Notes under the pieces: model-generated
Told to the model about the DNA's origin: nothing
Databases searched by the model: none
What the model saw: the letters and a program-made list of their open reading frames with translations, nothing else
Made by a program: the position numbers and the translations under genes
In this document: one piece after another, positions 22,945 through 38,291 of the stretch
Position numbering within the stretch: the stretch's first letter is position 1
Layout of the letters: each line of letters begins with the position of its first letter
Source of the DNA: Mucilaginibacter pineti
GTDB lineage: Bacteria > Bacteroidota > Bacteroidia > Sphingobacteriales > Sphingobacteriaceae
Direction: 5' to 3'
DNA: 64,000 nucleotides
NCBI RefSeq assembly: GCF_900101875.1
Contig: NZ_FNAI01000008.1
Location: forward strand, 186,001-250,000

Positions 22945-24105
22945 CTATTTTCCTTTATCCCAGTCAATTTTAAAAACGTAGGATTCGGATACTTTACCGC
23001 CGCTCACATTAAGATCTGCAGAGCTATAAAAATAGGCTGGTTTGCCTTTTAATATAAGTACCGCAGGCCGTTCCAATTTCCCCGTTGGGTCGCGCTCAAA
23101 ATGCCCCGGAGTGCTTAATAGTTTTTTATGATCTTCTGGTGTACCCCAATAATCTAACAGCGTCCCCATAGCAATTTTTGAGTCGGCCAATTTAAAGTTC
23201 AATCCGGTTTTTGATTCCCACAGGCTAATATCGCCGTAAATACCCGTGTTTCCGCCAAGATTGTCTGTAGTTAACAAATAATATTTTCCATTGGCTTTAA
23301 ACGCTTGTGCATCCTCTAAGTACGATACATTATCGGTAATTGGTTTATCACACATGGTGTATGGTCCCTCCAGCTTATTTGAAACCGCATAGCCGTATTT
23401 TGATTCCATTTGGCCGGGAGTTCCGGATTTAAAATAGATATAGTATTTTTTATCTATTTTCATAAAAGCAGGGTTATCTGTACCTATGTCTCCGCGATAG
23501 GTCCAATGGTGTGAATCATTTGACTCCTGTACTACGATTCCGCCATTGTTGCCTACAAATTTCCAGGGACCATTTAAATTATCAGCAACCATCATTCCTA
23601 TGCGTTGCTTTGTTTCTTTCGATGGGTTTTGACAGATGTAAAGCAGAATATATTTTCCATCAACGTACTCCAGCCTGGGGTTGTGTGGTCCCCACATAGT
23701 TCGTTGATCCGGGAACATGGAGGACTTCATAATGGTACCCACATATTTAAATGGCCCTTCTGGTTTATCGCTTACAAAATGCGCAATTTCGGCATTAAGC
23801 CCCGTCCAGCCTTCCATCCCTTCTGCTGCCGGCCAGCGGCTACCAAAAATATGTATTTTGCCATCTTTGCCTTCAATTGGCGAAACACACCAGTTATACC
23901 AGGCAGGATCGCCGATGGCAACTCCAATTAATTTGGCCGATAAAGCCATATGAGAATACGGAACTTTGGTTGGCTTCCCCTTTGCAGTAGGCAGTTGCTT
24001 AAGCGTTGCGGTATCTTTGGTTTGGGCGCGTAAATAAAAAGCGGATAAAAACACCATTAAAAATGTAGCTGTAATTTTTAATGTCTGTTCATTTTTAGTT
24101 GTCAT
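22945..24105 (-). CDS. Secreted five-bladed beta-propeller glycosidase, GH43-like
   Basis: Exported protein of 386 residues (signal peptide to about residue 28, SAFYLRAQ). It has the repeated blade pattern of clan GH-F and related propeller glycosidases: GDPAWYNWCVSPIEGKDGKIH near 66, TMWGPHNPRLEYVDGKYILLY, DIGTDNPAFMKIDKKYYIYF and SYLEDAQAFKANGKYYLLTT. The Asp of GDPAW, the Asp of TDNPAF and the Glu of LEDAQAF are at positions expected for the three acidic catalytic residues, but I infer this by pattern only. It has its own upstream region with a two-box repeat (24186-24221), shared with the SusC pair 3 locus. Substrate uncertain; arabinoside, galactoside or fucoside-linked units are possible. 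Confidence 0.75.
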   Translation of the reverse strand: MTTKNEQTLKITATFLMVFLSAFYLRAQTKDTATLKQLPTAKGKPTKVPYSHMALSAKLIGVAIGDPAWYNWCVSPIEGKDGKIHIFGSRWPAAEGMEGWTGLNAEIAHFVSDKPEGPFKYVGTIMKSSMFPDQRTMWGPHNPRLEYVDGKYILLYICQNPSKETKQRIGMMVADNLNGPWKFVGNNGGIVVQESNDSHHWTYRGDIGTDNPAFMKIDKKYYIYFKSGTPGQMESKYGYAVSNKLEGPYTMCDKPITDNVSYLEDAQAFKANGKYYLLTTDNLGGNTGIYGDISLWESKTGLNFKLADSKIAMGTLLDYWGTPEDHKKLLSTPGHFERDPTGKLERPAVLILKGKPAYFYSSADLNVSGGKVSESYVFKIDWDKGK

Positions 24106-24185
24106 AGATTGATTAGCCTGGTTATGAATAAGTGTTGACCGTAAGTTTACATTGGAACTGCAAATTAGAGATTAGTACTGCGATA

Positions 24186-24221
24186 TAAAATGGATAAAGC
24201 CTATCAAATAATGGACTATTC
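24186..24221. promoter_or_regulatory. Two-box direct repeat, candidate AraC-type operator
   Basis: TAAAATGGATAAA (24186-24198) is followed 21 bp on by ATGGACTATTC (24211-24221), 80-115 bp upstream of the GH43-like start at 24105. The same 13-mer, the same 21-bp phase and a near-identical second box occur at 32422-32457. Direct repeats about two helical turns apart are the usual footprint of AraC-family activators. Confidence 0.5.
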
Positions 24222-24290
24222 AATATATAGCCTGGGTTATGAAAGTAATTAGGCCTAAAAAATTATAGGAGTTAGCAAATGCTATGGTAT

Positions 24291-24320
24291 AAAAAAACTC
24301 CCGGATAAATCCGGGAGTTT
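24291..24320 (-). terminator. Rho-independent terminator of the pair 3 locus
   Basis: AAACTCCCGGAT (24295-24306) and ATCCGGGAGTTT (24309-24320) form a perfect 12-bp stem. Read on the minus strand the hairpin runs into seven T (complement of 24291-24297). It begins 35 bp after the stop at 24355 and closes the operon that starts with susC at 32100. Confidence 0.85.
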
Positions 24321-24354
24321 CCACACATCATTAATAGATACTCAAAAACTTAAC

Positions 24355-25575
24355 CTACTGATTAAACACATCATAAAATAAAGAAATCTGTGATATATTG
24401 GTATAACGGGTTTCGCCATTTACATTATGTAAAACCCTTACACGGATATAACGCACCGGAGGCAAGTTGTTATCCAGGTCCACTTTAAAAGGGGCCATGC
24501 CGTCATCAGTTCTTTTAACTTCTTTTAACAGTGTCCAACCTTTTGCAACAGCTTCAGCCTTCCATCCCGGATCATTTGATTTTAAATTAGTTGCTGCATT
24601 GGTTATGTCTGCAATTCCCCATATTTCAAAGTCATCCGGGTTGTTACAGCAATTACGGCCAATTTCTTCTACCTGCTTCAATGACTTATACACTTTACCC
24701 ATATCAAAGGTTAATGTTCTTGGCAGAACGTCATTTCCGTCGGCATGAAACAAGTGAGGGAAACCTTGTGGAGTAGTACTGCCATTCCAAAGCTGGTCAA
24801 CATCGGTATCACCTTCATACGGCCCCATATCATTAGGTAAAGCCGACTTTTTAAATAATGATTTATCACATTGTGCATAACCAAGTATTGTTGGAAACAC
24901 ATCTATTTTGGGCGCAGTAAAAATATCAATTGAATTACGATCTGGAATATAAGTTGAATTGTAAGTAACCTGTGAACCTGATTGTAAGTCATGAATAGTC
25001 AGAACACTATCCGCGCTACTAAGTGCCACGGTAACATTTTGCCCGCTCCTGTTGGTGTAATTTATTTTGGTGCTAATATTAATTGTATCTGCTGTTTTAA
25101 AATTAAGAGTTACATCACCTAATGGACTTACAACATAAGGTATTTTTGCGTTATAAGGCCTATTCAATAAGGTAGAAACATAAATCGGGCCGTATGCCTT
25201 AACATTATTTACTTCTGTTGGTATCGAGGAATTTCCTTTTGCATCATATGAATATATTACAAAGCTGTAAACAAATTCCTGAAGCCCGTTAATAACGGTT
25301 TTGATACTATCCGTTTTAGTAGTAATGTTCATTACCTGCGAATCGGCTTTGTTATTCCAGTAGATTACATATTTAACAATACTTGGATCGGAACTTGATT
25401 TCCATTTTAAACCAACCCGCAAGTTTCCTGGTTGCGTTATTACCTGCCCAACCGCGCCGGTGTAAATGATCTCTTTATCACCCTGAAACTTCTTAAAATC
25501 CGTTTGACTTTTATTGCAACTGTATATTACAAATAGTAATAAACAGCTCAGCGTTATATATATGATATTTTTCAT
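24355..25575 (-). CDS. DUF4998-type surface glycan-binding lipoprotein
   Basis: Lipoprotein of 406 residues (lipobox VIYSC, Cys20). The N-terminal part holds fibronectin-like strands with the DUF4998 pattern (GAVGQVITQPGNLRVGLKW, IVKYVIYWNNKADSQ, LQEFVYSFVIYSYDAKGN). The C-terminal ~150 residues look like a discoidin/F5-8C-type domain (LPRTLTFDMGKVYKSL, DFEIWGIAD, VRYIRVRVLHNVNGETRYTNISQISLFY). Proteins with this build follow susC/susD in many loci and present a glycan-binding module at the cell surface. No catalytic motif is seen. It is the last gene before the terminator at 24291, 38 bp from the gene upstream, and shares its layout. Confidence 0.8.
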   Translation of the reverse strand: MKNIIYITLSCLLLFVIYSCNKSQTDFKKFQGDKEIIYTGAVGQVITQPGNLRVGLKWKSSSDPSIVKYVIYWNNKADSQVMNITTKTDSIKTVINGLQEFVYSFVIYSYDAKGNSSIPTEVNNVKAYGPIYVSTLLNRPYNAKIPYVVSPLGDVTLNFKTADTINISTKINYTNRSGQNVTVALSSADSVLTIHDLQSGSQVTYNSTYIPDRNSIDIFTAPKIDVFPTILGYAQCDKSLFKKSALPNDMGPYEGDTDVDQLWNGSTTPQGFPHLFHADGNDVLPRTLTFDMGKVYKSLKQVEEIGRNCCNNPDDFEIWGIADITNAATNLKSNDPGWKAEAVAKGWTLLKEVKRTDDGMAPFKVDLDNNLPPVRYIRVRVLHNVNGETRYTNISQISLFYDVFNQ

Positions 25576-25613
25576 ATTCTTATTTTAACTTTTCGCGTTT
25601 ATAAATTGAACTA

Positions 25614-26843
25614 TTACTCAGGTTTACCATAAAATGATAACTCAAGCACGTGGCAAAGCGTACCGCCTTCCCATGTTCTGGCCACAGATAAACGTATATA
25701 TTTAACCGAAGGCGCATTAAACGGAATATTAAAGCCAACACCCAGGTTAAAGAAATCTTTATCACTTTGGTTTGGTGAAGTTGGCGGTAAACCAGATGGC
25801 GGAGGTGGCCAGCTGAAATTACCCATATTTGTCCAATCGCCTATTACCGTACCTACTGCGGCAGTAACCGGCAAAACAGCATCAGCAGGCTGATCTTTAT
25901 TTGATCCCCAAAAGCTGAAATCTCTTGGATTACCGTGGCCGTATTCATAACCCTTTCTTCCCCAAATATTAAAGCGGCTTAACTTATAGGTTTTACCAAC
26001 ACCAAATGTACAGGTAAAAGGAGGTGTTGAATTAGAGTTGGTGTGCCAGCCCGGATCTGTAAGGAGGCCATCCCAAAGCTTATCAACTGTCCATCCGCCA
26101 CCTTCATAAAGCGCATCGTCACTCGCTAAAGTATAAGTAAAGAATTTGCTTTTATCCAGTAACTCTTCATATAATGGGTTTAAATTTGCCTTTAGTGTAT
26201 CAGATATATTTCCCCACTCATCGGTAACATATACACCAAAATCCCTGGCATCTGTACTAAAACCCCTGATAGAAAAGTCGATAGTATCGGCATTTGTAAA
26301 ATGTTGTTCTTCAACCTCCATTGCTTTTGTTACGTCGCTAAAGGCTGTTACTATAATACCTACGTTCTTTTTAAGCGGGTTTAAAGCTTTTACATTAACA
26401 CCACCAAAATCGGGTGCTATAGTGGCGGTTGGCCTCACTAATTCATAAACAGGTGTTCCAGGATGTACGGTAACCGTAACCGGATCAGACATTACTTCTG
26501 CACGGCTAACTACATAAAGCGTAACCTGGTAATCCTGTGATTGTGCAAAGCCATTTACCACTACGGTATCTTTATAATACGATGATTTGGTTTCTCTTGA
26601 AACTTTATCTCTGATGCTGTATTTAGCTAACACATAAAGGATGTTATCAGAATTGGGCAGGTCATAGATAATGTTTGCACCACCGTTAAAGTTTTCAACC
26701 TTAACATTGGTAATAATACCCGGTTTTGTTTTGTCTGTAGAAACGGGCGTATTACTAAAGCCGTCGTTTCGCTTACATGAAAACATACTTATCATTACAA
26801 GACTCATAAAAAGCAGTAACGAATATTTATTTATAATTTTCAT
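25614..26843 (-). CDS. DUF4959/DUF5126/DUF5000-type surface lipoprotein
   Basis: Lipoprotein of 409 residues (lipobox MFSC, Cys23). Three modules are visible: an Ig-like N-terminal domain of DUF4959 type (about 38-130, KPGIITNVKVENFNGGANIIYDLP), a middle DUF5126-like domain (about 135-235) and a C-terminal discoidin-like DUF5000 domain (about 260-405) with FTCTFGVGKTYKLSRFNIWGRKG and VKYIRLSVARTWEGG. The set is typical of the third gene in susC-susD loci, acting in surface glycan binding. It follows SusD by 31 bp. Together with the next gene it gives this locus two binding lipoproteins but no glycosidase of its own. Confidence 0.85.
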   Translation of the reverse strand: MKIINKYSLLLFMSLVMISMFSCKRNDGFSNTPVSTDKTKPGIITNVKVENFNGGANIIYDLPNSDNILYVLAKYSIRDKVSRETKSSYYKDTVVVNGFAQSQDYQVTLYVVSRAEVMSDPVTVTVHPGTPVYELVRPTATIAPDFGGVNVKALNPLKKNVGIIVTAFSDVTKAMEVEEQHFTNADTIDFSIRGFSTDARDFGVYVTDEWGNISDTLKANLNPLYEELLDKSKFFTYTLASDDALYEGGGWTVDKLWDGLLTDPGWHTNSNSTPPFTCTFGVGKTYKLSRFNIWGRKGYEYGHGNPRDFSFWGSNKDQPADAVLPVTAAVGTVIGDWTNMGNFSWPPPPSGLPPTSPNQSDKDFFNLGVGFNIPFNAPSVKYIRLSVARTWEGGTLCHVLELSFYGKPE

Positions 26844-26874
26844 AATTTTTCAATTATCTATTTGAATCTTTAAG

Positions 26875-28803
26875 TTACCAGTTTGGGTTTTGCACCAAAT
26901 TGTCATTAATTGTAAGGTTATTCGTTTGTATAGGCCATATATAATTCCTGTTATTGAAAACAGGAGTTATAATAGTGTGCGGGCGATAATAATTTACAAA
27001 CGAATCCTGAAACACATCCCATCCTTGCAATGGCCTGGTCATTACCGCTTGCAGTTCTTTCCAGCGGCGCAGATCCCAGCCTGCCTGGCCTTCGAAGGCA
27101 AGCTCAATACGGCGTTCCTGGTGAATGATCTGACGTAAGCCATCCTGAGTTGTAAACTTACCCGGATTTTTTGAATAGTTTGTCCACGCCTCAACAACAC
27201 CTGGTAAACCAGCCCTTATTCTAACTTTATCAATGTAAGGAACAACTTCTGTATATGATTTTCCCTGCTCATTTAATGCTTCGGCATACAACAAGTACAT
27301 ACCCGAAAGCCTGATCATTGGCAAATGGAAACTAGACCAGGTCATGTTTGCATCAATATAAATGGTTAAATAGTTAACCAGTTTTTTGGGCCAGTAGCCG
27401 GTTTCATTTAAACGGATGCGATCTTTAGGACCTGCATATGAACTTGGGCCTTTAGCCTGTACATATAGCGCATTTTCGCCGTTTCCTAAAGTACCGTTAC
27501 CATACCACACACCACCATCAAAAGCCATATCGGCATAAAATCTTGGTTCGCGGTTAAAATGCGCCTTTACGGTTTGATAACCATTGTGAATGTAAAATCT
27601 GTTATCAGCATCACCTACTCTTGATCCGTAACGGCCCGTATAGTCCCATGTATTATCTTCGTTTATTGGTACTCCTTTATCAGTATAAAAAAGTTCCTGC
27701 TGGCTAATTGGGGCGGCAATGGTGCCTTCTGCAACTAAATTACCGGCAGCACCTGCTGTTAGCCTTGGCATATAATATTCCTGGTTACCATAACCAAATT
27801 GGTAATTTAAAGCCCATATAAGCTCAGGATTAGTTTCCCATTTATCGGTAATGGTAGTTTGCAGGTTTAATACCTCTCTTAATGAATCGGTAAGGTTTGC
27901 AGGGATAGTAGCCACTAAATCGGTTTTAGCATGCAGCCTATAGCCATTTGACTCTGCATCCTTTATAGCATCTAAACACGCTGCAGCTGCCCTGTCCCAT
28001 TTTGTAGCATCATACGCTGTAGTGAAAAGCGCCTGCCCATCTTTATTTTTCAGGTTGGAAAAATCAGGGTTGCCATTAAATAAGGGACTTGCAGCCGTCA
28101 TCAATACTTCGGCTTTTAAACTACGTGCAATAGTTTGTGTTACGCGGCCCAGTTCCTGTGCCTGGTTTTGGATAACCGGCGGCAAACCTGGTATTGCTTC
28201 GTCCAGTAATCTAACTATGTAGTTTACTACAGAATCTGCCGGTGCTCTTTTTACTTTTACTTCTTCTGTTGATGCAGTGATTGGCAGGTTTACATCAATA
28301 ATAGGTATTGGGCCATACATCCTGAACAGGTAGTAGTTGTAAAAAGCTTTTAAAAATTTGGTTTCAGCAATCCATCTTTCCTTTTCGCCCGGGGTAAGGT
28401 CAATAGGCTTATCAATGTTTTCAAGCATGGTATTACATTTCCTGATGGCCTTAAACATAGGCTGGCCACCGTTATTTCCATCCCAATAATTAAGTGTTGG
28501 GTTTGACGCGTTTTGTGTTCCGCGTACAAGGTTAAAGCCCTGCGGATCTACGCTGGAATTATCCTGAAGGTCATTAGGAAAAATAGTTTCTCCCGATATT
28601 ACAAAACCTGGGTTATACTGCATAGTACCCAAACTTTGCATGGCATTATAGCAACCAAAAAGATAATTCTCGGCCTCGTTCCTGTTCCTGAAAGCGTAAT
28701 CTATTGTACCAACGTTATCAGGCACAACGTCGAGGTACTTTTTGCATGATACGCCCGTCATCGCTAAAGCTATCATGCATAAATATTTGTAATATGATTT
28801 CAT
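26875..28803 (-). CDS. SusD/RagB-family lipoprotein (pair 3)
   Basis: Surface lipoprotein of 642 residues from ATG 28803; an ATG at 28821 adds six residues but puts charged residues before the signal. Lipobox VSC, Cys20, then KKYLDVVPDN. SusD hallmarks: LKAFYNYYLFRMYGPIPIID in the N-terminal domain, MIRLSGMYLLYAEALNEQGK and ERRIELAFEGQAGWDLRRWKEL in the C-terminal domain, ending QNPNW. At 642 residues it is the longest of the four SusD proteins here. It follows the susC stop (28831) by 27 bp. Confidence 0.95.
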   Translation of the reverse strand: MKSYYKYLCMIALAMTGVSCKKYLDVVPDNVGTIDYAFRNRNEAENYLFGCYNAMQSLGTMQYNPGFVISGETIFPNDLQDNSSVDPQGFNLVRGTQNASNPTLNYWDGNNGGQPMFKAIRKCNTMLENIDKPIDLTPGEKERWIAETKFLKAFYNYYLFRMYGPIPIIDVNLPITASTEEVKVKRAPADSVVNYIVRLLDEAIPGLPPVIQNQAQELGRVTQTIARSLKAEVLMTAASPLFNGNPDFSNLKNKDGQALFTTAYDATKWDRAAAACLDAIKDAESNGYRLHAKTDLVATIPANLTDSLREVLNLQTTITDKWETNPELIWALNYQFGYGNQEYYMPRLTAGAAGNLVAEGTIAAPISQQELFYTDKGVPINEDNTWDYTGRYGSRVGDADNRFYIHNGYQTVKAHFNREPRFYADMAFDGGVWYGNGTLGNGENALYVQAKGPSSYAGPKDRIRLNETGYWPKKLVNYLTIYIDANMTWSSFHLPMIRLSGMYLLYAEALNEQGKSYTEVVPYIDKVRIRAGLPGVVEAWTNYSKNPGKFTTQDGLRQIIHQERRIELAFEGQAGWDLRRWKELQAVMTRPLQGWDVFQDSFVNYYRPHTIITPVFNNRNYIWPIQTNNLTINDNLVQNPNW

Positions 28804-28830
28804 ATTTTTAAAAGTAATCATCAGTTAATT

Positions 28831-31800
28831 TTATAAAGAAACGTTTAGTCCAAGGTTAAATACCTTCTGTATAGGATAGGCAAATCCATTGCCGCCCAAT
28901 TCCGGATCCCATAATTTAAACGGACTCCAGGTAATCAGATTTAACCCATTGAAATAAATACGGGTTTTTTTCACACCTAAACTTTTAGCGATCTTGTCTG
29001 GCAGGGAATAACCAAACTCCACCGATTTTAACCTCAGAAAGCTTCCATCGCGCATCCACCAGGTACTTTGCTGCCTGTTGTTTTCAATTATGGCACCGTT
29101 AATACCTAACCTTGGATATAAGGCATATAAATTTTGATTATCCTCTGACCAGTGGTTATCGGCATAGGCCTGCAGCAATTGCGTATTGCCATTAAATTGA
29201 TTATCAGGACTTTGAATAAAAGGACTTGTTCTTGCCGGATCAATAAAGAATGAAACTTTTGCCTGGCCCTGGAAAAATGCAGAAAGGTCGAAATTATGCC
29301 ACCCCCCGCTTACTCCAAAACCATATACAATTTGCGGGATATTTGGATCGCCTAAAAATGTTTGGTCGGCACCATCAATTTTACCATCGCCGTTTAAATC
29401 GCGGTATTTTATATCGCCGCCTTGTGGTGCAAACCCGCCTGTGCTAAAGATTTGTGTTGGTGAGTTTTTTGCTTCCTCGTCATCAACAAATAAACGATCT
29501 GCAATATAGCCATAGGCGCGGTTAAGCGGCTGGCCGGTTAAAAGGCGATATTTTTCTGCATAATCTGGCTCTTCATATTGCACATATTTATTGGCAGTGT
29601 AAGTAAAGTTTGCTCTTGCAGAGAAAAAGCCATCCCTGCCTATGCTTGTTTTACCATCAAGTGATAAATCAATACCCTTTGATTGAACTTTACCAATATT
29701 GGCCGATATAGGCGCTTCTAAACCCATTGTTGTTGGTATGTTGCTACGGTTTTGTAACACATCATACTTATCGTTCTTATAAACCTCGGCAATTACATTA
29801 AAGTTCTTAAGAAAGGTAAACTCCAAACCTAAGTTAAGCTGTTTTGATTTTTCCCAGGTTACATCATCATTTTCATAGTTATTAATGGCAACCCCACCAT
29901 GTGAGTAGGCGTTATCTGTACCAAAAGAAGCGCCGCCGCCACCATTCAGATTTACGTCAGAAACGTAGAAAAAACGACGGTTGCTGATCTGGTCATTACC
30001 TACCAAACCGTAACTTGCCCTTACTTTTACACGACTAAATACGTCATACAGATCGCCCCAGAACTTCTCTTCAGACACGATCCATGAACCACCGATAGTT
30101 GGGAAGAAACCAAACCTGTGCTGATCAGAGAAACGCTCGGTACCGTTATAACCAAAGTTAAACTCTAAAAAATATCTGTTTTTGTAGGAATAGGTTGCAC
30201 GACCTGCAACAGTTTCATTACGGTAAGGTAACGAGTATTGCAAGGTATACTGATTCAGATCAGGATCTTTATTATTAGAAAAAATTTGCTGCTGCGCAGT
30301 GGCAATTAAAGCAGCGCTTATGGTATGATTTTTTGCAAAAGTGCGACTATAATCTAATACACCCTGTAGGTAAGTCTGTGTTTGCAAATTGTCTGATCCA
30401 ATATCCCTGTTATAACCAAGATATTCCTGCGCCTGGCCGGGTTGAGAGTTTATCCAATTTAAGGTGTATTGATTACTTGCCTTATCATATGTTTTTACAT
30501 TATAGTAATAAGGGCCGTATGACATATCCGACTGAAAATATGCATAACGGTTGGTACTAAAAATACCATGAAAATTTAAACCCTGGGTTACGAAATCTAA
30601 ATTTTGATTTAACTCCAATTGCGCAAGCAATCTTGATTCATTTGAGTTTTTATGCCCTTTTAATAAATCGGCATATGGGTTACGAGTTTGTACAGAGTTG
30701 GCACTTGATCCCAAAACGTTACCGAAAAGAATGTGCTTCACATTCAAATTGGCAGAATCCGGTGCAAAATAAGCCGGGAACAAAACAGGGCTTGTATGTG
30801 TTGCTTCGTTATAAAGGTCTGTCGAAAAACCACCATCGGCAGTTTGAGGACCATTATATCCGCTAAATGTACCTGATAAACGAACAACCAACTCGGTTTT
30901 TTCAGTCACATTAATATTTACGTTTGACCGTAACTGGTAATTTGTAAATTTAACGTTATTGTTATTGTTGTTCCTGATATCTGTTCTTAATATACCATTA
31001 TCATTACTGTATGAACCGGCAACATAATAGCGGGCAACACCGCCACCACCTTGTAAGCTAATATCACCACGTTGTGTATCGGTATGATCTTTAAACAACA
31101 ATTTCATCCAGTCAACGGCAGGATAAACGTAAGGGTTACTTCCCGGGTCGCCCCTTAGTGCAGCTTCGGTATTTGCTATCTTATTAGCAGTGAACGGCAC
31201 CGCAAGCAATGGGTTACGTGTAACAGTTGCCTCATTATAAAGCTTCATGTAAGTAATAGGATCTGCAAGCTGAAGGCTTTTGGCAGACTGTGATCTTGCG
31301 TTTTCAACCCTTACACTAATTTGTGCTTTACCAGCCTTACCCTCTTTAGTTTTAACCAGGATAACGCCGTTACCACCACGGGCACCGTATAAAGCTGTGG
31401 CACTCGCATCCTTCAATATCGAAAAACTTTCAATATCATCCACGTTTAACCTGGCAAGGTCATTTGCCGTTAACTCAACGTTATCTATCAAAATCAACGG
31501 GCTTTGTTTGTAACCAAATGTAGTTACCCCTCTGATAAAGAATTGGGAATTATCCTGACCTGGCTGACCGCTTGGCGTATAAGCAATAATACCCGCAACC
31601 TGCCCTGCTAATGCATTGGTAAGGTTACTTGCAGGTATTTTTAAATTTGCGGGCTTTACAGTGGTAACAGAGCCTACTATAGCCTCACGCGTTTGCTTGC
31701 GACTATAAGCGGTTACCACTACCTCATCGGCCTGGCTTCTTGATTCGCTTAATATAATTTTTACTACTTTTTGGTTGGTTATAGTAATGTGTTTTTCAAG

Positions 31801-32100
31801 ATAACCTACATAAGTAATTTTTAAAACTGTACCGGGTTCAACGTCAAGTATAAACTTACCATTACCGTCAGTAACAGTAGTTTGGCCTTTTTTCTCTAAA
31901 GGCGCCACGTTAGCTCCAATTATTGCTACGCCAAGCGAATCGGTAACGGTACCTACTACGGTTACCTTTCCTGAGCTTTGCGCATTTGCATGATTAGCAA
32001 ACCCCAACAACAAAAAAACCAGCATACAAGCGATGGTTAACAAGTTGTAAGGGATTTTCAACACTAAAAAGCGTTGATACACATTGTAAAATTTTCTCAT
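28831..32100 (-). CDS. SusC-family TonB-dependent receptor (pair 3)
   Basis: Outer-membrane receptor of 1089 residues without an STN domain. Signal region to about residue 41 (LLLGFANHANAQ), carboxypeptidase-regulatory-like domain about 47-120, DEVVVTAYSRKQTREAIVG in place of the usual VVVVGYGT motif, plug with IESFSILKDASATALYGARGGNG, and a barrel ending FNLGLNVSL. Ending in Leu instead of Phe or Tyr is slightly unusual. First gene of a four-gene operon ending at 24355, with a 615-bp upstream region that carries a two-box regulatory repeat. Confidence 0.96.
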   Translation of the reverse strand: MRKFYNVYQRFLVLKIPYNLLTIACMLVFLLLGFANHANAQSSGKVTVVGTVTDSLGVAIIGANVAPLEKKGQTTVTDGNGKFILDVEPGTVLKITYVGYLEKHITITNQKVVKIILSESRSQADEVVVTAYSRKQTREAIVGSVTTVKPANLKIPASNLTNALAGQVAGIIAYTPSGQPGQDNSQFFIRGVTTFGYKQSPLILIDNVELTANDLARLNVDDIESFSILKDASATALYGARGGNGVILVKTKEGKAGKAQISVRVENARSQSAKSLQLADPITYMKLYNEATVTRNPLLAVPFTANKIANTEAALRGDPGSNPYVYPAVDWMKLLFKDHTDTQRGDISLQGGGGVARYYVAGSYSNDNGILRTDIRNNNNNNVKFTNYQLRSNVNINVTEKTELVVRLSGTFSGYNGPQTADGGFSTDLYNEATHTSPVLFPAYFAPDSANLNVKHILFGNVLGSSANSVQTRNPYADLLKGHKNSNESRLLAQLELNQNLDFVTQGLNFHGIFSTNRYAYFQSDMSYGPYYYNVKTYDKASNQYTLNWINSQPGQAQEYLGYNRDIGSDNLQTQTYLQGVLDYSRTFAKNHTISAALIATAQQQIFSNNKDPDLNQYTLQYSLPYRNETVAGRATYSYKNRYFLEFNFGYNGTERFSDQHRFGFFPTIGGSWIVSEEKFWGDLYDVFSRVKVRASYGLVGNDQISNRRFFYVSDVNLNGGGGASFGTDNAYSHGGVAINNYENDDVTWEKSKQLNLGLEFTFLKNFNVIAEVYKNDKYDVLQNRSNIPTTMGLEAPISANIGKVQSKGIDLSLDGKTSIGRDGFFSARANFTYTANKYVQYEEPDYAEKYRLLTGQPLNRAYGYIADRLFVDDEEAKNSPTQIFSTGGFAPQGGDIKYRDLNGDGKIDGADQTFLGDPNIPQIVYGFGVSGGWHNFDLSAFFQGQAKVSFFIDPARTSPFIQSPDNQFNGNTQLLQAYADNHWSEDNQNLYALYPRLGINGAIIENNRQQSTWWMRDGSFLRLKSVEFGYSLPDKIAKSLGVKKTRIYFNGLNLITWSPFKLWDPELGGNGFAYPIQKVFNLGLNVSL

Positions 32101-32715
32101 AATTAATTATTGGTTTAAACTGGTTTTAAAATATATAAGAGGATATAATTTCTGGTTTATAAATATCCATGGCAAAAAAAGAAAATACAGCTCCGCAACG
32201 TCCTGTTATAAGGTCGTGTTTTTATAAGGTTACAAATGTTGGCTTTTACCAGACCGGTAGTTAACAATACCAATTTGCTTATTAATAAAGCAATCGTGTT
32301 AACCTTTTCACGGTCAAGGCTTTTTAGAACCTATCGGTGAGATAAAGTAATTTTTTTCGCATAGTCTATAATTTGTTTAGTATTAATTGGTTTAGTAAAT
32401 CTATTATAGATGGAGGCCTTTTAAAATGGATAAATCTTTTTTCTTGATGGATTATACTGTTTATTTGTACATTTTTTTCAAGCTATATATCACCTATATT
32501 TTAACAATTCACTCATTCAGATGCGATAATTGTAAAATTGACAGTACCTAAATTATTTTAGTAAAAAACAATCGGCTTGTTTTGATGCAATTCCGTTAAT
32601 ATGTGGTAACGATGTAATAATGTATCATTTTTAACGACCGCCAAATTGTTCGTACTTACAATCTACACGAATGAGCTTTTGAATTTGCCGTTTTAATAGG
32701 TAGGTACCAATGCCA
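32101..32715. other. 615-bp gene-free region upstream of susC pair 3
   Basis: No coding frame of weight. It holds the two-box repeat at 32422-32457 and an imperfect hairpin (ACGTCCT 32198-32204 / AGGTCGT 32211-32217, one T/T mismatch, then GTGTTTTTAT), which lies 98-117 bp upstream of the susC start, about where terminators oppose susC at pairs 1 and 2. No clear TTTG / TAnnTTTG promoter was found by eye. The far end lies just past the mutarotase stop. Confidence 0.6.
32422..32457. promoter_or_regulatory. Two-box direct repeat, candidate AraC-type operator
   Basis: TAAAATGGATAAA (32422-32434) and ATGGATTATAC (32447-32457) repeat the pattern at 24186-24221: identical 13-mer, identical 21-bp phase and 9 of 11 bases in the second box, while the 12-nt spacer differs. 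It lies about 325-355 bp upstream of the susC start, far for direct activation, so a long leader or a start site close to the repeat would be needed. Confidence 0.5.
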
Positions 32716-33174
32716 TTAATTGGTATGAAACACCTGTTCCATATTTTGCCATTGTTGTTTCTGAGCCTTGGCTTCAGGAAGCGGGGTCTGAGTTGGGTCG
32801 GTTTCTTTCCACCAGCGCTGGGTTGTAGTGTCGGCTGCCATTTTTGCCATATCGCCTTTAAAATCGGTACCTACATATTCAAAATAGCTAAATAAAAAGT
32901 ATTTACCTTCTATTTTTTGAATGTAGATAGAGTAGTTACGAATATTGCTTTCCTTTATTTTTTTTAATACGCCCGGCCATGCATTGGCATGTAGTTTCTT
33001 ATAATACTCCATCTTCTCGGGCTTTAAACCGGTTACCATGCCAAACCGTTGAACCTTAGAAGAATCAGCAATAGCAGTAGTAACTTTTTTGCTTTCTGGC
33101 GATTTGGTGTTACATGCAGCAAAGCCGATACAGCAGGCAGACATGATTACGAGAAGCATTTTTATTGGACGCAT
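32716..33174 (-). CDS. Lipoprotein of the L-rhamnose mutarotase family
   Basis: Protein of 152 residues from ATG 33174; the open frame runs back to 33207 and would overlap the symporter gene. Mutarotases of this family interconvert the alpha and beta anomers of 6-deoxy sugars; members act on L-rhamnose or L-fucose. Family patterns seen: RFGMVTGLKPEKMEYYKKLHANAWPGVL, FSYFEYVGTDF, and TTQRWWKETDP near the C-terminus. The N-terminus is a lipoprotein signal (lipobox FAAC, Cys21), which is unusual because the enzymes are normally cytoplasmic and about 105 residues. Here it should sit in the periplasm or outer membrane and prepare the sugar for the adjacent symporter. Last gene of the operon from 37035. 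Confidence 0.85.
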   Translation of the reverse strand: MRPIKMLLVIMSACCIGFAACNTKSPESKKVTTAIADSSKVQRFGMVTGLKPEKMEYYKKLHANAWPGVLKKIKESNIRNYSIYIQKIEGKYFLFSYFEYVGTDFKGDMAKMAADTTTQRWWKETDPTQTPLPEAKAQKQQWQNMEQVFHTN

Positions 33175-33191
33175 AATATTTAACTTTAAAA

Positions 33192-34847
33192 TTATCTGAA
33201 AATCCAAAACAGTACAACCATTATAAAAATCAACAATACCGAAAGCACCTTATAATTACCCAACCCACTCCAAGCCTTACCACGTAATGGCTCCCAGGGT
33301 GATTTCCAGTACAAGGTTGCACTTTCTGCTGTGTGGTGTACCGGGTACAGGAACGACAGGCCGATCTGCATAATTAAACAAACAACAAAAAGGTAAAAAG
33401 CCATCATCATAAAAGGTATTTGCCCTATAAAACTTGCCGGGGCAACTTTGCCTATAACAAAAACAGCAACACCTATAGCCGAACCAACCCACAAAGTATA
33501 TTTAGCAGATAAAGCCGACGCTTTTTCCCAAAACACCCCTAATAAAAACACGCAGGTAATGGGTGGTGCAATGTGGGCAATGATATCATTTAGCCCGTTA
33601 AATATACTTTCGTAATTATTAAGCAGCGGAAGCAGCAGTAAGGATACTACCAACGATACGCCGGCAGCTATTTTACCTACACTTACCAATTTTTTGTCGG
33701 TTGCCGCTGGTTTATACCTTTTGTAAATATCATAGCTTACAATAGTTGATATGGAATTTAATGCACCGGAGATCTGACTCATTAAACCCGATAACAGCGC
33801 TGCTACTAATACCCCTATTAATCCCGGCGGGATCAGTTGGGTGATCATCAGTGTATAAATACCTTTACTGTTTACTACTTCTTTACCATCAACAACGCTT
33901 TTTAAGGCCGATATATCTAAATGGCCGCTATGCGCCAAAGTATAGGCAAACAAGCCGGGCATCACAAAAATGAATACCGGTAATATTTTTATAAACCCGC
34001 AAAATAGCGGCCCGACCCTTGCATGGTTCTCATCCTTAGCACCCAACACCCGCTGTACAATGGTTTGATCGGCACACCAATACCAGATACCCAGTACCGG
34101 ATAACCCAGAAACACCGCGTACCAGGGCATACCACTGGAATCGCCATGCGGCCGTAGCATGGATAGTTTATTTAGCTCACCGGTATTCTTTAATACCTCA
34201 ACCATCGGTTCCCAGCCACCCATTTTATGGTAGGCAGCAAAACTCATGATAATAGCACCGCCCAAAAGCACTACAGTTTGAATAGATTCGGTAACAACTA
34301 CAGCCGTTAACCCCCCTACTACAGTGTAAATAGTAGTAATTACCGATATTACAATAACACTGGTATACATATCAACCCCAAACAAGGTATGTAACACAAT
34401 ACCACCAGCCAGTAACGAAAATGCAATATGGATAAGCACAGCAGATACTACTGAGATAATGGCAAGCCAATCCCTGCTGGCACGGTCGTAACGTTTTTCC
34501 AGAAAGTCGGGCAGGGTTGATACGCCAGATTTGATATAGAATGGGGCGAAGAACAACGCCAGCAGAATTAACGTAAACGCTGCCATCCACTCAAAATCGC
34601 CGTTAAGCAAACCGGTGTCGAAACCGCTTTGTGCAAGGCTTACCAAATGCACACAGGAAATGTTTGTAGCAAACAAAGCCAGGCCTATCATTGGCCAGCG
34701 CAGCTTTTTTCCGGCTAAAAAATATTCACCAGCCTCGTTGTTATTGTTTTTTGTTTTACGCTGATGACGAATACCCGACCACAAACCGATAATAAAAATT
34801 ACCGCTATGTACAAGGCACTAATGATCAGATCGGGTGTGTGTATCAT
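33192..34847 (-). CDS. Sodium/solute symporter (SSS family), probable sugar transporter
   Basis: Inner-membrane transporter of 551 residues with about 13-14 hydrophobic helices. It belongs to the sodium:solute symporter family, with ISALYIAVIFIIGLWSGIRHQR at the start, GEYFLAGKKLRWPMIGLALFATNISCVHLV (helix 1 region) and the conserved WYWCADQTIVQRVLGAKDENHARVGPLF segment. SGLT-like members import monosaccharides with Na+. Lying between an L-fuconate dehydratase and a 6-deoxy-sugar mutarotase, it most likely imports L-fucose or a relative; that is inferred from context. The downstream mutarotase begins 17 bp after its stop. Confidence 0.92.
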   Translation of the reverse strand: MIHTPDLIISALYIAVIFIIGLWSGIRHQRKTKNNNNEAGEYFLAGKKLRWPMIGLALFATNISCVHLVSLAQSGFDTGLLNGDFEWMAAFTLILLALFFAPFYIKSGVSTLPDFLEKRYDRASRDWLAIISVVSAVLIHIAFSLLAGGIVLHTLFGVDMYTSVIVISVITTIYTVVGGLTAVVVTESIQTVVLLGGAIIMSFAAYHKMGGWEPMVEVLKNTGELNKLSMLRPHGDSSGMPWYAVFLGYPVLGIWYWCADQTIVQRVLGAKDENHARVGPLFCGFIKILPVFIFVMPGLFAYTLAHSGHLDISALKSVVDGKEVVNSKGIYTLMITQLIPPGLIGVLVAALLSGLMSQISGALNSISTIVSYDIYKRYKPAATDKKLVSVGKIAAGVSLVVSLLLLPLLNNYESIFNGLNDIIAHIAPPITCVFLLGVFWEKASALSAKYTLWVGSAIGVAVFVIGKVAPASFIGQIPFMMMAFYLFVVCLIMQIGLSFLYPVHHTAESATLYWKSPWEPLRGKAWSGLGNYKVLSVLLIFIMVVLFWIFR

Positions 34848-34857
34848 TTATGTTGAA

Positions 34858-34955
34858 AATACTAAATGCTAAAACTTTAAATCCTAAATAATAAATTCTA
34901 GATCCTAATTCTAACCTCTAAATCCTGATTTTTAAATTCTAAAACCCTAAGTGTT
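34858..34955. repeat. Degenerate AT-rich short tandem repeat
   Basis: Spacer between fucD and the symporter built of irregular copies of a TAAATCCTAA-like unit: CTAAATGCTAA, TTTAAATCCTAAA, TAAATTCTAGATCCTAATT, CTAACCTCTAAATCCTGA, TTTAAATTCTAAAACCCTAAG. The unit length drifts between about 8 and 15 bp. No hairpin or promoter motif stands out. Confidence 0.6.
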
Positions 34956-35000
34956 GAATTCAAATACTCTTGATTTAAGGGAATATTCATGTTATATTAT

Positions 35001-36230
35001 TTATTGCAATGCTTTCAAATCGCAGCTGCTGCCGGGTTCCTGGGGTGTTATATATACGCCATTGCTTATTTTAACCGGGTTTACAAAGTGCTTTTGCAGG
35101 TGCGGGATGTGTTCTAAAAATAACGCCTCATGCCCTACCGATATGTGGTTAAACAATACCAGGTGCTGATGCAGTTGCCCCATATCGCCTACATGCGGAA
35201 CCACGGGTATACCATACTTTTTACATAGCAAGCTTACCGTTATAAATTCACTAACCCCGCCTACCCTTACAGCATCAACCTGGATAAATGATGCACTGCC
35301 TGTTTGCAGGTAATTTTTAAAGATGATTTTATTAGGTACATGCTCGCCCAATGCAAGCTTTAAGGGTGCTATAGCATCGGCCAGTGTTTTATGTGCCAGC
35401 ACATCATCCGGATGAGTTGGTTCTTCTATCCAATAAGGGTTCATCTCTTTCAAATCCTTACAGATAGCTATGGCCTGCGGCAGGTTCCATTGCTGGTTAG
35501 CATCAAGCATTACCTTCACACTATCTCCCGCTACTTCCCGTACAATATGCGCCCGGCGGATATCTCTTTCGGGATCGGCAGAACCTACTTTTAGTTTCAT
35601 AGCTGTAAACCCTTCAGCCAATGCTATCTTGCAGTTTTCGCGCACCTTCTCGTCAGAGTAATTGAACCAGCCTATTGAAGTATCGTAGCCAGGATACCCT
35701 TGTTGCAGGATTGCTTCGCGTTGTGTTTTTGTTGCTTGCTGTACACTTAGCATCTGTATAGCCTGACTATGGGTAAGCTCATCCTCCAAATAAGAAAGAT
35801 CCAACGTTGCAACAACTTGTTCGGGTGATAGGTCATTCAGCAGTTTCCAAAGCGGAACGCCGCGTTTTTTTGCCCAAAGATCATAACAAGCATTGGTTAC
35901 CGAGGCCAGGGCCAGGTGCACCACGCCCTTATGAGGCCCAAGCCACCTGAACTGCTGGTCGTTTGAGAGTTGTTTAAACAATTCGCCAAAGTTGGCCATC
36001 GTATCCTCAATATCTCTACCTCTTAACTTTTCGGCATAATATTGGGCGGCTTTGCAAACAAGGTCGTTACCTTCACCAAGGGTAAAGGCAAAACCAACAC
36101 CTGTTATGCCGCAATCATCAAATAAACGGGTTACCGCATAAGAATAAACCGGATCGGTATGTATGGCATCGCTTCCGGCCGCGCCATCAAGGGCGTACCG
36201 CATATCATCAACTTGTATATTTTTTATCAT
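35001..36230 (-). CDS. fucD: L-fuconate dehydratase (enolase superfamily)
   Basis: Cytoplasmic enzyme of 409 residues of the mandelate racemase / muconate lactonizing enzyme group, which dehydrates L-fuconate to 2-keto-3-deoxy-L-fuconate. The N-terminus (VDDMRYALDGAAGSDAIHTDPVYS, in part) matches the fuconate-dehydratase opening in which an acidic-Gly-Ser-Asp block precedes the capping domain. Active-site motifs in order: MKLKVG with the KxK pair near 209, DANQQW (first metal ligand, near 240), WIEEPTHPDD (second, near 267) and GEHVPNK (near 297). It is slightly shorter than characterised members (about 440). It starts 2 bp after the SDR stop, so the two are co-transcribed. Confidence 0.9.
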   Translation of the reverse strand: MIKNIQVDDMRYALDGAAGSDAIHTDPVYSYAVTRLFDDCGITGVGFAFTLGEGNDLVCKAAQYYAEKLRGRDIEDTMANFGELFKQLSNDQQFRWLGPHKGVVHLALASVTNACYDLWAKKRGVPLWKLLNDLSPEQVVATLDLSYLEDELTHSQAIQMLSVQQATKTQREAILQQGYPGYDTSIGWFNYSDEKVRENCKIALAEGFTAMKLKVGSADPERDIRRAHIVREVAGDSVKVMLDANQQWNLPQAIAICKDLKEMNPYWIEEPTHPDDVLAHKTLADAIAPLKLALGEHVPNKIIFKNYLQTGSASFIQVDAVRVGGVSEFITVSLLCKKYGIPVVPHVGDMGQLHQHLVLFNHISVGHEALFLEHIPHLQKHFVNPVKISNGVYITPQEPGSSCDLKALQ

Positions 36231-36231
36231 C

Positions 36232-37035
36232 TTATATCAGATCTGACTTTTCCTGGATAGTTTGATTGATCACCCTGCGATAGCCAAGCTCGGCTCCACC
36301 GGTTACAGGCAAAATGCAACCAGTAATAAAGCGTGCTTGTTCAGATATCAGGAACAGACAGGCATCGGCTACCACATCTCCCTCGGGGCAGTAGCCCAGC
36401 GCATGAATATCATCCAGATAGTTTTCTATTGAGGCCGCATCCGGCTGTTGCTGGCTCCATACCCTAAGCATTGGCGTCCAAACACCTGCTGGTGCTACGG
36501 CATTAACTCTTATACCATAGGGGGCATAATCCAAAGCCATTGATTTTGTTAGCGCACTTATAGCTCCTTTTGTGGCACTGTAAGCTGCATGTATCTCCTG
36601 CCCTATATCGCCAACAAGGCTGCCTGTATTCAGGATATTTCCCCTTGTTTTCTTCAACTCCTCTATCCCAAAACGGGTAGTGTTGTATACGCCTTTTACG
36701 TTCACATCAAAAAGGGCATTCCACTCCTCTTCGGTAGTGTCATGCACCGCTTTTGATGGATTAGATATACCGGCATTATTGTGAATAACATCTATCCTTC
36801 CAAAAAAAGCAACCGTTTCTGCAATGGCTTGTTTTATATCGGCCGCTACAGATACATCGGCTTTTAAATAGAGGATACCATCCCCGTACAACTTTGATTG
36901 AGCATCATTTATACTTTGGGTCGAATTTGAAATTATAGAAATTTTTGCTCCTGCGGCGCTGTATATTTTGGCGCACTCCAAGCCAATACCCTCCGTACCG
37001 CCGGTTAAAAAGACAACTTTATCACTTAATAGCAT
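36232..37035 (-). CDS. Short-chain dehydrogenase/reductase of the fucose operon
   Basis: NAD(P)-dependent oxidoreductase of about 267 residues from ATG 37035; ATG 37062 would add nine residues before the Rossmann start. Motifs: TGGTEGIG nucleotide loop (TGxxxGIG), NNAG, catalytic Ser in NTGSLVG, and Tyr/Lys in AAYSATK. First gene of the operon SDR-fucD-symporter-mutarotase. In the non-phosphorylating L-fucose pathway an SDR can oxidise L-fucose to the lactone or 2-keto-3-deoxy-L-fuconate to the diketo acid; sequence alone does not settle which. The lactonase and the final cleavage enzyme are not in the window. Confidence 0.85.
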   Translation of the reverse strand: MLLSDKVVFLTGGTEGIGLECAKIYSAAGAKISIISNSTQSINDAQSKLYGDGILYLKADVSVAADIKQAIAETVAFFGRIDVIHNNAGISNPSKAVHDTTEEEWNALFDVNVKGVYNTTRFGIEELKKTRGNILNTGSLVGDIGQEIHAAYSATKGAISALTKSMALDYAPYGIRVNAVAPAGVWTPMLRVWSQQQPDAASIENYLDDIHALGYCPEGDVVADACLFLISEQARFITGCILPVTGGAELGYRRVINQTIQEKSDLI

Positions 37036-37062
37036 ATATTTTGTAGTTGAAGTAAGGCGCAA

Positions 37063-37373
37063 AACCCTATAGCGCTTAAACTTTGGGTTTATACTGCCAC
37101 AGATTTCACTTTTTAAAAATTAAGAACCCGGTTACATTGGTTATTGCGAACAAACCAAATGTAAGCGCCAAATTCATATATTATAATAGGGGATACTTTT
37201 ATTTAAATGGATTATTCGCCTATTTGAACAGCACTAATTTAGTGAAAGCCAAATAATGTATTATATCATTAGCTGCGCACCCAAAATCGTTGTTTTTACA
37301 AATAGTTTTACCTATAATAGCACCGCCAATAAACCAAAATACACTTTTTTAACACCTGAAATTTTGCATACCC
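37063..37373. promoter_or_regulatory. Divergent promoter region of the fucose operon and araC-type gene
   Basis: This 311-bp AT-rich region separates the minus-strand operon (start 37035) from the AraC-type gene (start 37374). It holds ATGGATTATTC at 37207-37217, which fits the second box of the repeats at 24211 and 32447, and GGGGATACT 18 bp before it, a poor copy of the first box. No clear -33/-7 pair was found by eye. Confidence 0.45.
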
Positions 37374-38291
37374 ATGAAAGATAATAGCAAAAGACGTGAT
37401 GGATTTGTGGGAGAAAAACTGATTAGTATACCCCAAAAAGTTATTAAAACAGCAAAAACAACTTATCCCGCGCTGCTGCAAAATTATGTTACGCACATAG
37501 GTTATTTTCCCAAGGCCTCCTTTCATTACCGGGAACGCCGCAAAGGATGCGAGGATAATATTTTGATTTACTGCCTGCAGGGGAAGGGCAATTTTATTGT
37601 TGACCAAACCCATTTTGAAATAAAATCTAACCAGTTTATAATGGTGCCGGCCACTGATAAATATATGCGTTACTGGGCCGACAGGACTGATCCGTGGACC
37701 ATCTACTGGATCCATTTTACCGGCGAAAACATTGCCGAGTTTAATAAATCGCTTAAATTAAGTATCAGCAAAGGCCCGGTACAGGTTCCGTTTAATGAAA
37801 AGGCAATTGCTGTTTGGCAAAACATATATGAAACATTTGAGATGGGTTACAGTAATGAAAATATGATTAATGCGAGTTTTTTGATCTATCCTTTGTTATC
37901 CAGTTTCCTGTTTTACAAAAACAATATGGAATCGGGTGAGCAAAGCCATAGCAGGAATATCATTAGCGAAACGATTGCTTATATGCGTCAGCACATTAAT
38001 GAAAAACTAACTGTCGAAAATCTGGCTAACCTAAATTTGTTGTCAGCGTCCTATTTTTCTAAATTTTTCAGCAACGCTGTTGGTATGCCCCCGATTGATT
38101 ATTTTATCCATTTAAAAATGCAAAGGGCATGCTATTTAATAAAAACAGAGAATACCAAGATTAAAATAGTAGCCAGGGAGCTGGGTTACGAAGACCAATT
38201 TTACTTTTCACGACTGTTTAAAAGTCACATCGGTATATCGCCAAACGAATATAGATTATCTACAAAAAATGATGATTTTAAATTGAATTGA
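37374..38291 (+). CDS. AraC-family transcriptional regulator
   Basis: Regulator of 305 residues. The N-terminal domain (about 30-150) is a cupin-type ligand-binding fold (CLQGKGNFIVDQTHFEI, YWADRTDPWTIYWIHFTGENI), which in this family senses sugars. The C-terminal ~100 residues hold two helix-turn-helix motifs (LTVENLANLNLLSASYFSKFF and IKIVARELGYEDQFYFSRLFKSHIGISPNEYR, in part). It is divergent from the SDR-fucD-symporter-mutarotase operon and the obvious candidate to activate it, with L-fucose or a relative as a likely ligand. The repeats at 24186, 32422 and 37207 are candidate targets. It ends 10 bp before a bidirectional terminator. Confidence 0.93.
   Translation: MKDNSKRRDGFVGEKLISIPQKVIKTAKTTYPALLQNYVTHIGYFPKASFHYRERRKGCEDNILIYCLQGKGNFIVDQTHFEIKSNQFIMVPATDKYMRYWADRTDPWTIYWIHFTGENIAEFNKSLKLSISKGPVQVPFNEKAIAVWQNIYETFEMGYSNENMINASFLIYPLLSSFLFYKNNMESGEQSHSRNIISETIAYMRQHINEKLTVENLANLNLLSASYFSKFFSNAVGMPPIDYFIHLKMQRACYLIKTENTKIKIVARELGYEDQFYFSRLFKSHIGISPNEYRLSTKNDDFKLN

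Follow-up and report, generated by a model that had tools for sequence, protein, structure and literature searches.

A two-box promoter element and a predicted AraC-type L-fucose regulon in Mucilaginibacter pineti

Gene content and promoter elements of the locus

The window analysed here, a stretch of 64,000 nucleotides on contig 20 of the 7.2 Mb genome of Mucilaginibacter pineti, contains a gene for a GH43-like secreted glycosidase, a SusC/SusD pair (pair 3) with its downstream partners, a putative operon for L-fucose catabolism and, divergent from this operon, a gene for an AraC-family regulator (Table 1). The names that the initial annotation gave to the GH43-like, SusC/SusD and AraC-family genes were borne out by profile searches.

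Table 1. Genes and putative promoter elements of the locus (positions in the window)
Feature	Position	Strand	Remarks
GH43-like secreted glycosidase	22945..24105	-	Pfam PF04616, E=1.9e-12
Candidate -7 element of the GH43-like gene	24160..24167	-	Poor match TAATTTGC, 22 bp after second core
Two-box operator (putative) of the GH43-like gene	24186..24221	-	TCCAT cores 24211-24215 and 24190-24194
DUF4998/DUF5000 and DUF4959/DUF5126/DUF5000 proteins, SusC/D downstream partners	24355..26843	-	Same order in relatives
SusD3, surface glycan-binding lipoprotein	26875..28821	-	
SusC3, outer-membrane TonB-dependent importer	28831..32100	-	
-7 element of susC3	32396..32403	-	TAGATTTA, 22 bp after second core
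Two-box operator (putative) of susC3	32422..32457	-	TCCAT cores 32447-32451 and 32426-32430
RhaM-family mutarotase	32716..33207	-	Nearest solved relative L-fucose mutarotase
SSF sodium:solute symporter	33192..34847	-	Probable inner-membrane fucose importer
Enolase-superfamily L-fuconate dehydratase (predicted)	35001..36230	-	2hne/1yey, E about 1e-104; human ENOSF1, 3e-111
SDR, HSD17B14-like	36232..37062	-	Probable L-fucose (or 2-keto-3-deoxy-L-fuconate) dehydrogenase
-7 element of the fucose operon	37156..37163	-	TACATTTG, 22 bp after degenerate core
Operator (putative) of the fucose operon	37186..37215	-	Perfect core TCCAT 37207-37211, degenerate core CCTAT 37186-37190
AraC-family regulator, proposed activator	37374..38291	+	AraC_binding (cupin) domain and two HTH motifs

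The homology of the catabolic enzymes gives good support to fucose as the sugar of the regulon. The enolase-superfamily protein aligns to the L-fuconate dehydratase 2hne over nearly its full length (6e-104). The SDR, the true start of which is likely a downstream ATG, has as its nearest solved relative HSD17B14, an enzyme described as an L-fucose dehydrogenase (PMC11293516). Its score against the NCBIfam FucosDh model is 145 bits at a cut-off of 300, and it could instead be the 2-keto-3-deoxy-L-fuconate dehydrogenase of the later step. Fuconolactonase and the enzymes of the final aldolase or hydrolase steps were not found in the operon. As a side observation, the operon (35001-37062) pairs homologs of HSD17B14 and ENOSF1, both of which are implicated in human L-fucose degradation. 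Elsewhere in the window (14112-16901), a gene that no two-box site precedes encodes a fusion of fucose pyrophosphorylase and GHMP kinase, resembling the FKP protein of fucose salvage.

Among proteins of solved structure, the GH43-like protein lacks a close relative (best E about 6e-4), and its plasmid-borne relatives show less than 30% identity among the matches listed. The gene, however, recurs beside fucose genes, namely, 3' of the SDR, dehydratase and SSF genes in one genome (G038) and beside the araC gene in Flavobacterium cutihirudinis, which supports its membership in the regulon. Judging from this context, the enzyme may have an as yet unrecognised activity on glycans that contain fucose.

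Upstream of both the GH43-like gene and susC3 lies the element TAAAATGGATAAA-N12-ATGGAYTATWC, without a single mismatch and with the two boxes set exactly 21 bp apart, whereas the 12-nt spacers are unlike; in this respect, the initial annotation was exact. These are the only two perfect copies within the window, and 100 dinucleotide-preserving shuffles of the window yielded no match even at three mismatches. A scan of the GH92/GH43/SusC4 and GH95 operons of the window found no further two-box sites, and no Rfam family matched anywhere in the window. Because all the target genes are on the minus strand, the element is best read on that strand, as two TCCAT cores with a 21-bp spacing, the second core being the gene-proximal one.

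A related box, ATGGATTATTC, was found at 37207, ahead of the fucose operon. The initial annotation regarded it as a single box; the box itself is there, but it has a partner, a degenerate core located 21 bp nearer the gene, and nearly the same degeneracy recurs in the orthologous promoters. Among the 24 fucose-operon promoters examined, the first core is a perfect TCCAT in all 24; the sequence found 21 bp on is CCTAT in 13, GCTAT in 6, ACTAT in 1 and TTCAT in 4, the last being the loci where GH29 leads the operon.

Promoter geometry and conservation across genomes

The sequence TAnnTTTG is the known -7 element of Bacteroidota promoters. Its slightly relaxed form, TAnnTTTR, begins exactly 22 bp past the second core in 49 of the 60 distinct two-box sites, at 21 bp in 2 and at none of the other offsets from 5 to 49; the fucose-operon promoters have it at 22 bp in 21 of 24 cases. 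What is conserved across species is the pair of cores, their 21-bp spacing and the 22-bp distance to the -7 element; the spacers are not. An activator that makes contact with RNA polymerase next to the -33 region would require a geometry of this rigidity. The promoter of the GH43-like gene, for which there is no orthologous promoter to compare, is the weakest of the three in the window. When up to two mismatches are allowed, the full-promoter pattern amounts to noise (26 matches, vs 31 for the reversed control), and hence we used only matches without mismatches or those at conserved positions.

The leaders of the susC genes, in the window and in relatives, contain a short ORF 57-65 nt past the second core. 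In the window (32341-32370, minus strand), this ORF starts with MRKKLLYLTDRF, resembling the susC start MRKFYNVYQRF; in relatives, the corresponding sequences are MKHFYK in the leader and MKPFYE in susC. Leaders of the contig-29 type have an ATG followed directly by a stop codon.

Good two-box matches in the M. pineti genome lie in the window, on contig 18 and on contig 29, the loci of the window AraC itself and of its two closest relatives in the genome. There are further matches on contigs 20 and 39, and the few others, at three mismatches, look like noise. At the site on contig 20 (261710-261922, 11.7 kb past the right end of the window), two perfect two-box promoters diverge, each with TAnnTTTR at +22; they are flanked by a gene for a 906-aa outer-membrane barrel on one side and a gene for a 555-aa protein with a CHU_C secretion domain on the other, and a similar divergent pair is present in another genome (G056, contig 7). 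On contig 39 (127543-127598), a 136-aa ORF is preceded by a perfect two-box promoter, in which TAnnTTTA stands at +22. Two-box promoters thus also precede genes without an evident fucose link, so that the box is not confined to fucose genes.

Across 150 Mucilaginibacter genomes, the strict pattern AATGGATWWA-N12-ATGGAYWAT has 110 matches (summed over per-genome counts) in 59 genomes, compared with 0 for the reversed control. For 73 genomes of the genus, the presence of the AraC subfamily was scored: the strict pattern is found in 33 of the 48 genomes that have this subfamily and in 0 of the 25 that lack it (Fisher p=1.8e-9, which is only a guide because related genomes are not independent and regulator-bearing genomes tend to be larger). 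Most of the sites (46/63) lie within 25 kb of a gene of this AraC subfamily, and among the perfect core pairs near the AraC orthologs, the spacing peaks at exactly 21 bp. Random scatter of the motif, which the initial annotation had named as one of two outcomes that would count against it, is not what these searches show. The pattern matches in a genome of the same class and another family (G073) were rejected as operators: there are dozens of them, on several contigs, and they represent a satellite of the 7-bp unit AATGGAY.

The other such outcome, a lack of conservation ahead of orthologous genes, was not observed either. The site precedes the orthologous susC and fucose operons and, in relatives, fucosidase operons as well. 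Many close orthologous loci share one layout, comprising the AraC gene, the divergent SDR, the fuconate dehydratase, the SSF symporter, in some cases RhaM, a two-box site and a susC-susD pair; further along lies a second two-box site, ahead of GDSL, GH29 and GH95 genes. In M. pineti itself, the GH95, GDSL and GH29 genes sit with the AraC paralog of contig 18, behind two-box sites. Members of the same AraC clade adjoin the same catabolic genes, often together with GH29 or GH95, in seven other genera (Sphingobacterium, Dyadobacter, Siphonobacter, Flavobacterium, Ferruginibacter, Pedobacter and Chitinophaga). The regulon of the relatives includes GH29 and GH95 fucosidases.

The regulator, its paralogs and the proposed regulon

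The AraC-family protein of the window combines an N-terminal sugar-binding cupin domain (AraC_binding, PF02311, E=1.6e-07) with a C-terminal AraC-type domain that contains two HTH motifs (PF00165, 5e-19; PF12833, 5e-16). Its score against the curated arabinose AraC model (103.8 bits) is below the cut-off of 208, so that it does not qualify as an ortholog of the arabinose regulator. The M. pineti genome encodes two paralogs, one 60% identical (contig 18, 865352-866245) and the other 38% identical (contig 29), with boxes of the same kind at both loci. As far as the letters go, the sites of the three paralogs are indistinguishable from one another. The initial annotation had posited one AraC regulon linking the glycosidase, SusC pair 3 and fucose catabolism. 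The shared regulon is supported by the tests across the genus; "one AraC", however, is too narrow a description for this genome because the two paralogs adjoin the same kind of site. The adjacent AraC may not be the only protein to bind the boxes, and the two copies, in the window and on contig 18, may share or split the job.

In our view, the three elements are very probably operator-promoters of one regulon for L-fucose and alpha-fucosides, controlled by a soluble activator of this AraC subfamily; within this reading, we infer the binding itself, the ligand, activation as opposed to repression and the role of the weak half-site. The activator would be the product of the gene at 37374-38291 and probably also its 60% identical paralog, with the N-terminal cupin domain sensing L-fucose or an early intermediate. 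A dimer would sit on the two TCCAT half-sites, which are directly repeated at a 21-bp spacing, lie on the same face of the helix and extend up to the edge of the -33 region. It would contact RNA polymerase there, the -7 element (TAnnTTTR) of the promoter following at a fixed distance of 22 bp. Joint induction would in this way extend to the SusC/D importer, the operon for fucose catabolism and the GH43-like hydrolase or, in relatives, fucosidases. The catabolic promoter would differ by its weak proximal half-site, which is conserved and can be compared to araI2 in the araBAD promoter of E. coli. More tentatively, and we consider this possible without favoring it, the half-sites could be graded by design, with two perfect cores at the uptake and hydrolase promoters and a perfect distal plus a degraded proximal core at the catabolic promoter, so that, under one regulator, fucoside import and fucose breakdown would begin at different inducer thresholds, a layout of the araI1/araI2 kind reached in Bacteroidota.

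Among the alternatives, the one that deserves the most attention, even if we regard it as unlikely, is that the regulon is real but its operators in the window are served mainly by the contig-18 paralog, the window AraC having drifted in its ligand or its sites or having partially lost its function. In the phylogenetic tree, the window AraC falls inside a Mucilaginibacter clade (98*) on a long branch (0.74), whereas the contig-18 copy evolves slowly; the DNA-binding domain of the latter is 82-90% identical to those of its closest orthologs, which adjoin fucose operons, and the domain of the window copy is only 58% identical to it. Equivalent sites at both loci are also compatible with such a division. 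Against this, the window gene is intact, its protein has kept the HTH2 core DQFYFSRLFK, and it retains the place that the orthologs have, next to the fucose operon and divergent from it. Less probable still, in our estimate, is that the box is generic to an AraC subfamily broad enough to take in the contig-29 type, with members that respond to different sugars; common boxes would then be no proof of a common signal, and the promoters in the window may answer to different members. TCCAT pairs with the 21-bp spacing are indeed found next to more distant regulators as well (clade B, 35-41% identity), and the two-box promoters ahead of the gene pair for the outer-membrane barrel and the CHU_C protein and on contig 39 point the same way. 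The exact pattern, however, is missing from the 25 genomes of the genus without the subfamily, although these still have AraC-like candidates, and therefore it is not generic to AraC proteins. Furthermore, several relatives with a single close AraC copy have the site at the susC, fucose-operon and fucosidase promoters alike, and the presence of these three kinds of promoters around one copy suggests that a single regulator probably served all of them ancestrally.

Chance or repeat-derived likeness devoid of regulatory meaning has, in our judgement, a negligible probability. The small number of perfect copies in the window and the noise-like genomic matches at three mismatches could be cited in its favor, but shuffling predicts zero copies, what is conserved is the cores together with the 21-bp and 22-bp registers and not the spacers, and the genus-wide counts and the co-occurrence with the regulator contradict it.

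Comparison with known systems

Direct repeats of this kind have precedents among the regulators of polysaccharide and sugar utilization. In Bacteroides, hybrid two-component systems (HTCS), which carry an AraC-type DNA-binding domain, recognize direct repeats, with an average of 21 bp between sites, ahead of susC/D and glycosidase operons (PMC3878776). The HTCS are membrane-spanning hybrid proteins; in contrast, the window AraC, at 305 aa, comprises only the AraC_binding and HTH regions, without a kinase or receiver domain, and we therefore rejected its assignment to this class. Closer in kind is RhaR of Bacteroides and other groups, likewise a one-component AraC regulator of a deoxysugar pathway, which has 21-bp direct repeats (PMC3870299). 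RhaR, however, controls L-rhamnose genes, and the likeness is one of regulator type and repeat spacing.

Control of L-fucose utilization in Bacteroidota is represented by FucR of Bacteroides thetaiotaomicron (BT1272), a protein of the GntR family (PMC3878776), whereas the locus described here has an AraC-type regulator and an oxidative, fuconate-type pathway; the AraC regulon would, therefore, be a non-orthologous solution. The fuconate dehydratase and SDR of the oxidative L-fucose pathway of Xanthomonas campestris and human (HSD17B14, ENOSF1) are homologous to the enzymes in the window, but the regulator and the transporter differ from those here. In a literature search that took in few subscription papers and did not extend to RegPrecise, we found no description of an AraC-type fucose regulon in Sphingobacteriaceae. 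AraC-type sugar regulators on 21-bp direct repeats are already known, and the fucose version appears, so far as we found, to be newly described. If the model holds, a single soluble regulator may, in many environmental Bacteroidota, link uptake by SusC/D to glycosidases and to the catabolism of the sugar, in this case fucose. The promoter model, defined to the base as two TCCAT cores 21 bp apart followed by N22 and TAnnTTTR, is a rigid pattern that lends itself directly to the prediction of further regulon members and may hint at the roles of their products, such as the GH43-like enzyme.

The nearest mechanistic parallel is E. coli AraC at araI1-araI2 of araBAD, also a soluble AraC protein with a cupin sensor and direct half-sites. 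The second HTH motif is nearly identical (DQFYFSRLFK in the window AraC, DQLYFSRVFK in E. coli AraC, 2k9s alignment), and the TCCAT of the window cores is common to the E. coli half-sites. The TAGC box of the E. coli sites, which is read by the first HTH, is absent here, and the first HTH of the window AraC has diverged from that of E. coli AraC. The HTH2 match and the common TCCAT fit the assignment of the regulator to these sites but do not prove it. In both systems, a weaker half-site, araI2 in E. coli and CCTAT in the window, lies next to the promoter. Unlike araBAD, with its -35 and -10 elements and arabinose genes, the promoters described here combine the half-sites with the Bacteroidota -7 element and fucose genes.
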